Below, piece after piece: positions 128 to 48,057 of a stretch of 64,000 nt of DNA. The translations under genes and the position numbers were made by a program. The stretch comes from Eubacteriaceae bacterium (GTDB lineage: Bacteria; Bacillota; Clostridia; Eubacteriales; Anaerofustaceae): contig JAFXKY010000026.1 in assembly GCA_017531485.1 (NCBI GenBank), positions 1-64,000 of the forward strand, in the 5' to 3' direction. The notes beneath the pieces were generated by a model. The model saw only the letters and a program-made list of their open reading frames with translations. It did no database searches and had not been told where the DNA came from. Numbering within the stretch: position 1 is the first letter of the stretch; each line of letters starts with the position of its first letter.

Positions 128-290
128 ATTATTAACACCCGCGGAAATCCCATTTCCGCGGAAAAGGACGGAGGAATACCTGCGGAGTCAGGCGCACTGC
201 CTTCGGCAGTTCCTGACGGAGGCACGGTATTATGACGTCCGTGGGTGGGGATCAAATAAAAGAAAAATGCTGAGCATTTTTCAACATCGT
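128..290 (+). repeat. Second module of the hairpin element (candidate structured RNA), copy A
   Basis: A 10-bp hairpin (139-161) is followed by a long imperfect stem. The pairings are GGACG 166-170 with CGTCC 236-240, AATACC 175-180 with GGTATT 226-231, TGC 181-183 with GCA 222-224, GTCAGG 187-192 with CCTGAC 212-217, and an apical ACTGCC/GGCAGT hairpin (196-210) with a TTC loop. A symmetric GGA/GGA internal loop (184-186 and 218-220) sits between two stems. The tail repeats the A-rich end of module 1. A homologue in the opposite orientation lies at 42796-42954, and its differences preserve pairing. The orientation of the working strand is inferred from the order of modules. Confidence 0.7.
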
Positions 291-364: not shown

Positions 365-632
365 AATCGCACACCTCGCCTTGAACCGGTCACGGGAAAG
401 GTTACATCTCATCCGGCTCAGATCAGGCAACTTCGCGGCACACACGCTTGCCCGCTACTGCTGCTTCCTTCCGGACCTGACAGGGTTTACAGGGGCGCAT
501 TGCACGAGACCCGACCTTCAACACTTTCAAAGATGCACTTCTTGCCCGGGACAGACCCGCAACAAGGAATTCAGTCCTGCTATGGCGGATTACAGGTACA
601 GGGAACCGCCAGCTCCCCACTTAGTGCGACTT
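365..632 (-). ncRNA. ffs: Signal recognition particle RNA, large bacterial type
   Basis: This RNA is the scaffold of the signal recognition particle that delivers nascent membrane and secreted proteins to the translocon together with Ffh. The minus strand carries the invariant domain IV core, in which GTCAGGTCCGGAAGG is followed by AGCAGC. The predicted 5' end (TCGCAC, 624-629) pairs with the 3' end (GTGCGA, 367-372). This gives a molecule of about 268 nt, the Bacillus/Clostridium size class with an Alu domain rather than the short 4.5S form. A consensus promoter lies at 637-665 and a terminator at 322-343, so it is a stand-alone gene. In Bacillus it lies next to dnaX; here dnaX is about 51 kb away. 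Ends are estimated from pairing. Confidence 0.95.
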
Positions 633-6148: not shown

Positions 6149-7002
6149 AAAAGAAAAAGAAATTTTATGAAAATATAATGCTCGTTCTCCTTATGGGAGT
6201 AATACTTCTCGCTTCAAAGAGAGCATCTCTTCCCGCAAGCGGCGGAGGAGAAGAGAAGTATGATGTGCCGATAATAATGTATCATGCGGTGATGAAAGAC
6301 GAAGGGAGAAGCGGGAAATACGTGATAACGCCGGAAGTTCTTCGGGAAGACATAGAGTATATACTTGATATGGGTTATGAACCCGTATTCATATCGGACA
6401 TAATAAATTTCGTATATTCTGACTCTCCCCTTCCGCAAAAGCCCATCGTGCTGACATTTGACGACGGGTATTACAACAATTATCTTTACGCATATCCAAT
6501 TTCAAAGGAGTACGGAATAAAAGCCGTCATCTCCATCATCGGAAAACACACCTATCTTCAGTCAGAATCAGGAGAAAAGCAGGCAGAATCTTATTCCCAC
6601 GTATCATGGGAGCAGTTGAAGGAGATGTCGGACAGCGGACTTTGGGAAGTGGGGAATCATACGTATGACATGCATAACACGGGAAAGAAAAACGGACTTC
6701 TGGCAGCATCCGGGAAAAATACGGAGGAAAAAAACAAAAACATCATTTCCGACATTACAAAGCTGCAGGATCTCATAAAAGAAAATGTGGGAGTTACTCC
6801 GAAGACGTTTGTTTTTCCGTTCGGAAGTTATGACGAAAACACGAATGCTCTCATAAGGGATCTCGGATTTGAGGCGACGCTTTCCTGCATAGAAGGAATA
6901 AATGAGATAAGCCGCGGCGGAAATACGGAGCTGTTATATCGCTATAACCGTCCTGCGGGAGTAAGCACAAAGGAATTTTTTGCCGGCATCTTTAATAAGT
7001 AA
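6145..7002 (+). CDS. Second polysaccharide deacetylase (CE4, NodB fold)
   Basis: The 285-residue protein begins at a TTG that forms a TTGA overlap with the preceding stop. A lysine-rich tip (residues 2-6) and one hydrophobic helix (9-22) anchor it outside the membrane. VPIIMYHAVM (41-50) and VLTFDDGYYN (102-111) are the CE4 signature blocks, with Asp106/Asp107 as base and metal ligand. NHTYDMH later supplies the two metal histidines, and FVFPFGSYDE matches motif 3. Unlike its neighbour it keeps the complete TFDDG. The substrate is probably peptidoglycan or a secreted N-acetylated glycan. The pair looks like an ancient duplication with diverged motif 1. Confidence 0.88.
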   Translation: MKKKKKFYENIMLVLLMGVILLASKRASLPASGGGEEKYDVPIIMYHAVMKDEGRSGKYVITPEVLREDIEYILDMGYEPVFISDIINFVYSDSPLPQKPIVLTFDDGYYNNYLYAYPISKEYGIKAVISIIGKHTYLQSESGEKQAESYSHVSWEQLKEMSDSGLWEVGNHTYDMHNTGKKNGLLAASGKNTEEKNKNIISDITKLQDLIKENVGVTPKTFVFPFGSYDENTNALIRDLGFEATLSCIEGINEISRGGNTELLYRYNRPAGVSTKEFFAGIFNK

Positions 7003-42670: not shown

Positions 42671-42795
42671 ATTCTTACCTCGGGATGATTTTATCATATT
42701 TTCATGGTTTATTAAAGTCCCATTTGCCGATGTGTGAGATGAGTTGGGGGATCACGTTGTTTTACGATCCTCAGCCGTCAGATTCGTGATTCATT

Positions 42796-42954
42796 TTTAA
42801 CTGCCGCACTTTTCTTTTTTTGATAATTCCCCGCCCATGGGCGTTGAAACACCGTGCATCCGTTAAGCTCATTGGCGGAACATGATCTTAACTCCGCAGG
42901 CATTTCTCCGCCCCGTTCCGCGAAAATGAGATTTTCGCGGGTTTTATAAGGTGG
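42796..42954 (-). repeat. Second module of the hairpin element, copy B
   Basis: On the minus strand this is homologous to 128-290. The leading hairpin is CCGCGAAAAT/ATTTTCGCGG with a three-base loop (42918-42940). The outer stem is GGGCG/CGCCC (42909-42913 with 42839-42843), where copy A has GGACG/CGTCC. A GTTAAG/CTTAAC stem replaces GTCAGG/CCTGAC. CCTGCGGAGT and ACGGA-x-GCACGGT are unchanged. The differences therefore preserve pairing. Confidence 0.7.
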
Positions 42955-43214
42955 AAAAGTGCTGTCGCACTTTTCTTTTTTGATAATCTCCCACCCGCCC
43001 GCCCCGCGCCGCAACCGATGCGGAGCATCGGTTCCCAAAGGCTCCGCCTTTGGGGCAGGACGCCTGCGGCGTCCTGTGCGGCGCGCCGCCGCGCGAAAGC
43101 GGAGCTTTCGCAGCAAAGTGGCGTAGCCACTTTGCTCCGCCGTGCAGGCACGGCGGGCGGCGGGGGTGGCGGGCGGGGATAAAAAAGAAGCTTTGTGCAG
43201 CGGCACAAAGCAAC
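42955..43214. repeat. GC-rich hairpin-array element, copy R3 (inverted relative to R2)
   Basis: It carries the same hairpins as R2 in reverse order. In plus-strand order they are AACCGATGC/GCATCGGTT, CCCAAAGGC/GCCTTTGGG, CAGGACGC/GCGTCCTG, a GC-only palindrome, GCGAAAGC/GCTTTCGC, AGCAAAGTGGC/GCCACTTTGCT, and GCCGTGC/GCACGGC. The GCTTTGTGC/GCACAAAGC end hairpin lies at about 43191-43210. The AGCAAAGTGGC arm differs from R2's AACAAAGGGGC at two positions, both compensated. It lies between two minus-strand genes. Confidence 0.85.
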
Positions 43215-47818: not shown

Positions 47819-47844
47819 GGCGGCAATAAATCGAACAATGAATC

Positions 47845-47990
47845 GCTCGGATAGAGGCGCGGGGTTCATGAGTATCCGGAGAGTTTTGAGCAATTGCTTC
47901 CGGTGAAAGGGGATACCGCCGAAGGGCGCAGGGATGCTCGGCTCTGCGTGGCCTGGGTCGTCAGGAAATACCTGCCGGACTGTCACATTG
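47845..47990 (+). promoter_or_regulatory. Lysine riboswitch (L box)
   Basis: The aptamer shows the conserved L-box blocks in order: AGAGGCGC at the 3' side of P1, CATGAGTA, GGTGAAAGGGG, ACCGCCGAAGG, and GGCCTGGGTC, ending with CTGTCAC that closes P1 (GATAG with CTGTC). It is followed by a terminator hairpin at 48058-48087. Lysine binding should favour that terminator and shut off the ABC importer at 48123-50679. Transport substrate lysine is therefore well supported. Confidence 0.93.
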
Positions 47991-48057
47991 TAACTTTGTG
48001 AAGCGCTATCGTAATTCGGAGTTGGCAGACTTTTATTTTGCTTATTTCGTAATTTAT

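Follow-up and report, generated by a model that had tools for sequence, protein, structure and literature searches.

BOX is a small dispersed repeat of the same kind as bcr1, RUP, ERIC and NEMIS. The RtT RNA of the E. coli tyrT locus (Rfam RF00391) is a repeat that occurs with tRNA 3' ends and includes a 3' fragment of a tRNA, and in this it resembles the module described below. RtT is, however, a local repeat within one operon, unlike the dispersed module, and the Rfam scan gave no RtT match at the module. Repeats and MITEs of the bcr1, RUP, ERIC and NEMIS type are 70–300 bp long, non-coding, dispersed and often foldable (PMC3733652). The CGTC-tagged REP sequences contain a single stem of 8–9 bp within a repeat of 20–40 bp that bears the CGTC tag (Di Nocera et al. 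2013, PMC3733652); the same account lists no Firmicutes among their hosts, describes no placement at tRNA ends and knows of no dedicated transposase. A further comparison is offered by the mobile/repeat sequence candidates (MRSC), among which MRSC-65-2 forms a single long stem (Narunsky et al. 2024, PMC11109978).

The window, by which we mean the entire 64-kb stretch of DNA that was analysed, comes from the draft genome of an Eubacteriaceae bacterium and carries two 102-nt core copies of a structured module, located at 139–240 on the plus strand and at 42839–42940 on the minus strand. The original prediction had placed a pair of look-alike modules at 128–290 and 42796–42954; both are present in the sequence, but their boundaries had to be corrected, and positions 241–287, which had been counted in the first module, are a flanking direct repeat of 83–129. 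In both copies, the core is composed of hairpin 1 (10 bp with a three-base loop), an AANN linker and a long hairpin 2. From its base inwards, the latter has a GG[A/G]CG foot, the tandem G-A step GA/GA, a helix from which one base bulges, and the GGA/GGA loop, beyond which lies helix 3. The features are as follows.

1–92, no strand assigned: GC-rich hairpin array adjoining copy 1, read from the sequence; similar arrays lie beside copy 2 and beside several of the genome's other copies
83–129, no strand assigned: left flanking direct repeat, outside the core, consisting of GTGGGCGGGGATC and a minus-strand terminator-like hairpin; 98% identity to 241–287
139–161, plus strand: hairpin 1 of copy 1, CCGCGGAAAT-CCC-ATTTCCGCGG, 10 bp with a triloop; 99.7% of cells paired over 32 distinct copies, with two-sided changes at three pairs
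162–165, plus strand: A-rich 4-nt linker of copy 1, from alignments A1 and A2
166–240, plus strand: hairpin 2 of copy 1, from the structure count of alignment A2 (9 + 7 pairs with two-sided changes) and the minimum free energy (MFE) fold
166–170 with 236–240, plus strand: foot of hairpin 2
171–172 with 234–235, plus strand: tandem G-A
173–183 with 222–233, plus strand: helix of hairpin 2, C bulged at 225
184–186 with 218–220, plus strand: GGA/GGA loop
187–195 with 209–217, plus strand: helix 3
241–287, no strand assigned: right flanking direct repeat, 47 nt
367–629, minus strand: bacterial large SRP RNA (Rfam RF01854, 174.7 bits), a neighbour outside the element, separated from copy 1 by 126 nt and encoded on the other strand
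42839–42913, minus strand: hairpin 2 of copy 2, with the architecture of copy 1; scores 100.4 bits with covariance model R1
42918–42940, minus strand: hairpin 1 of copy 2, CCGCGAAAAT-CTC-ATTTTCGCGG

Copy 1 is located downstream of the SRP RNA gene and in the opposite orientation. The terminator-like hairpin found at 83–129 and again at 241–287 is specific to this locus and is duplicated on either side of copy 1. Similar locus-specific flanking duplications accompany copy 2 and the copy at another locus of the genome (L002), and all three look like a long duplication at the site. The GC-rich arrays adjoining the two window copies, at 1–92 and approximately 42997–43190, consist of back-to-back hairpins. 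Part of the second array, 43008–43102 on the minus strand, was called as tRNA-Cys by ARAGORN; it has a cloverleaf-like layout without support from Rfam, and the call is probably false. The window also holds a lysine riboswitch at 47844–48016 on the plus strand (RF00168, 90.3 bits).

How does the module compare with the known systems? With REP and CGTC repeats it shares a short, dispersed, extragenic, strand-specific stem-loop character and many copies, and the complement of its 3' end reads CGTC. Of the defining traits of the CGTC-tagged REPs, this end alone is shared; the module measures 100–120 bp, forms two hairpins with internal loops and resides in Clostridia. MITEs have terminal inverted repeats, whereas none were recognised at the module ends and no target duplication accompanies the one clean empty site. 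Elements of the IS200/IS605 type have subterminal hairpins, one active strand and a TnpA with a fixed short target beside one end; in the module there are two hairpins, and a bias of G-U over A-C appears to pick out one folded strand. Like the MRSC motifs (PMC11109978), the module covaries, has several copies per genome, as the MRSC definition asks, and is inconsistently oriented relative to genes; unlike MRSC-65-2, it has two hairpins and a preference for tRNA ends. Association with a transposase, integrase, nuclease or helicase is also part of that definition, and here no consistent neighbour was seen, while one identical set borne by an integrative element lies near a tyrosine integrase. 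Narunsky et al. list 250 such motifs, and the family may be one of them. The original prediction recognised no known class, and indeed a scan of the window with Rfam 15 gave no match over the module at the gathering threshold, nor did a permissive E-value yield a credible sub-threshold match at several copy-bearing loci of this genome, its sister species (G001) and a genome from another family of the class (G118). Literature searches returned no description of this repeat family. It is a small structured repeat of the REP/MITE/BOX kind, absent from Rfam and previously uncatalogued. Our reading, to which we assign a probability of roughly three in four, is that the module is one copy of a non-coding, non-autonomous, structured mobile repeat of Clostridia, approximately 100–120 bp in length.

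Positions 80–300 fold far better than chance would allow (z = −7.85), and z is −3.06 for 42790–43010 on the minus strand, both stretches including flanking hairpins. The compensatory exchanges originally reported between the two window copies (GGACG/CGTCC to GGGCG/CGCCC, GTCAGG/CCTGAC to GTTAAG/CTTAAC and GGAAAT/ATTTCC to GAAAAT/ATTTTC) are all present, and larger sets of copies confirm that the structure is maintained by compensatory change. Among 12 copies, 18 of the 35 pairs show two-sided changes, compared to 10.2 expected from column shuffles and 1–3 when the partners are slid; 96.2% of cells pair, compared to 85.2% and 36–41%, respectively. Relatedness among the copies inflates the shuffle statistics, while the slid-partner controls retain this relatedness and clearly fail. 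Extending the set to the 32 distinct aligned copies of this genome raises the first figure to 19 of 35 and puts paired cells at 96.6%. When folded one by one, nearly all full-length copies adopt the two-hairpin shape as their MFE structure. An alignment of 114 distinct rows from across the class has two-sided changes in 23 of 24 pairs, although it was fitted to the model and thus favours the model structure. The ratio of G-U to A-C on the plus strand is 50:5 for the copies of this genome and 95:23 for the class-wide set, and this excess indicates that the plus strand is the folded one, which would fit RNA and single-stranded DNA equally well. Two details of the earlier description needed adjustment. 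The blocks said to be kept unpaired include a part of CCTGCGGAGT that does pair, UGC with GCA, and UAU with AUA in other copies (alignment columns 43–45 with 84–86). The GGA/GGA loop holds for the copies of this species but not for the family, in which the widely kept tandem G-A is the GGAG/CGAC at the foot of helix 2.

The two modules first noticed belong to a much larger set. DNA and covariance searches of the 2.17-Mb draft genome located 36 full-length copies in addition to truncated ones, several at contig ends. The copies examined in this genome are intergenic, and simple ORF calls place 18 of them in the same orientation as the downstream gene and 13 in the opposite one; within this simple ORF context, no neighbouring gene is consistent. 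A riboswitch or leader was ruled out by the variable orientation and the unrelated neighbours. In this genome, the core usually sits within longer mosaics of other palindromic repeats, so that it could spread as a passenger. Two other abundant types, GTCCCCCTTAGGATAAGGGGGA and a TGTTCCACGAAC unit, occur in mosaics with the module (for example at L065, L072 and L074).

In order to trace homologues, we chained covariance models, with R1 leading to the sister species G001, R2 derived from G001 and R3 from G118. Outside this genome, matches to R1, at approximately 29–37 bits, were confined to the sister species. Hairpin 1 and the GGAG/CGAC foot are retained in most of its copies, which differ in the internal loop and have two-sided changes of their own. 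R2 recovers the copies of this genome reciprocally and reaches G118, whose copies covary in the same architecture. R3 matches at least 46 of the 391 genomes sampled from the class, representing 32 genera and 17 families and often with several copies per genome, a count that is a lower bound as scoring was limited to nine candidates in each genome. This genome is linked to the class-wide set transitively, by way of R2; E-values of the models are rough owing to short calibration, and many of the genomes were assembled from metagenomes, with repeats falling at the ends of contigs. The homologues found by these searches in clostridial genomes retain the stems, as would be expected if the original prediction were correct. 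An R3 search across the order of G127, which covered nine genomes, added little. A degenerate pattern scan returned at least 119 stretches, from Clostridia wherever the record names the organism, with Ruminococcus bromii, Blautia, Butyribacter, Christensenella, Levyella and Candidatus Gallimonas among the carriers; seven viral contigs also carry the module. A pattern for the subtype of this species had no matches in the genome-contig and viral-contig collections, which at first suggested a genus-restricted repeat, a view overturned by the chained models. Similarity searches of phage and plasmid collections gave nothing decisive. Identical modules, with at least ~1–2 kb of matching flank and a tyrosine integrase gene nearby, were observed at several loci (L287, L288, L320, L341 and L351; also L149 and L196) in Levyella, Blautia, Ruminococcus bromii and Butyribacter, and judging from these sequences the module is carried there by a recently shared integrative element (ICE).

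In relatives, copies are found at the 3' ends of stable RNA genes. For 22 of 113 full copies, the element ends at most 2 nt from the 3' end of an intact tRNA identified by ARAGORN, and in all 22 the tRNA lies on the 3' side of the element in antisense; the isotypes include Ser, Gln, Leu, Pro, Met, Trp, Thr, Gly, Arg, Glu, Cys and Asp. At least four further copies, identified by eye, adjoin an apparent tmRNA 3' end (L186, L194, L199 and L207). Under a generous null, the probability of this tRNA-end placement by chance is 1e-43. None of the copies of this genome abuts a tRNA, so extending the placement to the window copies is by inference; the G118 copies used for R3 do not abut a tRNA either.

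A single precise empty site shows the element as an insertion. At a tRNA-Trp gene, one genome (G253) has the tRNA ending in CCACG and followed directly by its terminator, while in a relative (G392) an element of ~114 nt stands between CCACG and the same terminator, the far flank being 96% identical. The insertion point is 2 nt after the CCA, within the genomic trailer, and no target-site duplication is evident at this one site. Read on the tRNA strand, the inserted copy (L180) opens with 14 bp that perfectly repeat its own end in inverted orientation (GCGTCGGAGCAAAG...CTTTGCTCCGACGC); T5 comes next, and the arrangement looks like a product of snap-back synthesis. At a tRNA-Leu gene the element is present in G169 and absent from two siblings; the far flank is rearranged and not syntenic, so that only the absence can be stated. 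A tRNA-Gly pair (G127 and G095) was rejected as an empty site, since the second genome holds a disrupted remnant and 1.24 kb of other DNA. Comparison of similar copies with different flanks places the left end of the element at RGGGC and the right end at GACG, two sequences that do not form an inverted repeat; many copies have RGGGC at the left, but the clean insertion does not. Copy number varies sharply among close relatives: there are 36 full copies here and approximately 11 divergent ones in the sister species, while a search of 11 further genomes from the family found none. The original prediction of a functional structured RNA is supported in its structural part, but a cellular job finds no support. 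The module is dispersed in many copies, without a constant neighbouring gene or orientation, and has a clean empty site in a relative, which is how a mobile element behaves.

By analogy with REP and IS200-type elements, the folded strand would be the form recognised by a mobiliser acting in trans, in which case the covariation would record selection for mobility and not a regulatory job at each site. Insertion would favour the ends of stable RNA genes, where it is presumably harmless, and there the inner hairpin may be kept or recruited as an intrinsic terminator of the tRNA. The mobile form could be either folded single-stranded DNA, towards which we lean, or RNA copied back to DNA. A search of this genome for the mobiliser found none, and no TnpA was identified. 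The sole match to a Y1_Tnp/RAYT-like gene (L083 1090–1860, minus strand; L085 1459–1743, plus strand) has the HUH motif replaced (PDRANF), is single-copy and has an orthologue in the sister species; its product looks like a domesticated, catalytically dead protein of the transposase family. No module copy was found within the ~1.5 kb fetched on either side. A Y1 transposase beside the repeats was accordingly rejected as the mobiliser, and the arrangement typical of REP/RAYT systems, a RAYT gene flanked by repeats, was not seen in this genome.

The tRNA junctions allow another view, which we consider unlikely: the plus-strand RNA might be reverse-transcribed, with the 3' CCA end of a tRNA as primer or joining partner, producing antisense joins to tRNA ends in the manner of a retroviral primer-binding site. 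For many isotypes and for tmRNA, the junction reads GACG, then 0–1 nt, then TGG, which is complementary to CCA. TGG stands at offset 0 or 1 in 34 of the 101 copies ending in GACG, although many of these are native tRNA genes and most junctions are without TGG. Among the 211 distinct junctions, CCA occurs no more than 3 nt from the end of the element in 76, in some of them by chance; 38 of the 76 also have a full T-arm, tmRNA included. At other junctions, free-standing tRNA 3' fragments break in the T-loop, 18–21 nt from CCA, a distance close to the size of the primer-binding site in retroviruses. By eye, some copies are seen to lie in sense just before the 5' end of a tRNA or before half of one (L284, L344, L362, L300 and L347), and in L300 and L347 the module is joined to tRNA-Pro pieces that start in the anticodon loop; such junctions (L344, L362, L300, L347) are at RNA ends, and the excess of G-U over A-C would also fit. 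Against this, the tRNA at the clean empty site is a native gene and not a retro-copy, the insertion falling beyond CCA in genomic sequence, 135 of the 211 junctions are without CCA, and only about a dozen fragments are informative, not all of them independent and some related by descent. That a minimal bacterial retro-element of ~110 nt spreads in Clostridia by priming on, or joining to, the 3' CCA ends of mature tRNA or tmRNA is more doubtful again; if true, it would be a bacterial counterpart of tRNA-primed retrotransposition.

It is improbable that each copy is a cis-acting element or small RNA with a function in the host cell, dispersal being secondary. The strong covariation would agree with such a role, yet in repeats of this type it does not alone imply a cellular RNA function. 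Some phage copies do count against a mobile repeat, as they lie in sense just upstream of genes, where a cis-acting RNA would be expected; in the viral contigs L398 (~6200–6310, reverse complement) and L403, the module immediately precedes the ribosome-binding site belonging to a gene that resembles those of phage capsid regions. Evidence against a host-serving RNA comes from the variable orientation, from the lack of a downstream gene common to the copies and from the sharp differences in copy number among close relatives.

The idea that the element is a tRNA terminator read on the opposite strand, its structure conserved for termination, can hardly be upheld: an intrinsic-terminator-like hairpin with a T-run does occur inside the element on the tRNA strand in 25 of 28 tRNA-joined copies, compared to 29 of 85 others and 0 of 39 in this genome (Fisher p = 2e-7), but if transcription stopped at helix 3, the hairpin concerned in those examples that were inspected by eye, it would not reach helix 1 or half of helix 2, even though both covary strongly, and the base-pair bias favours the other strand. 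As the native terminator still stands downstream of the clean insertion, we read the predicted terminator as kept or recruited at tRNA sites and not as the reason for the structure of the element.

As a probable structured mobile repeat, the module adds a widespread family to the gut Clostridia, in which intergenic annotation is poor. Antisense placement precisely at the 3' ends of tRNA and tmRNA genes is unusual as a target preference; it provides a direct handle on how small repeats without a mobiliser of their own move, and it suggests a simple route from mobile element to tRNA terminator.
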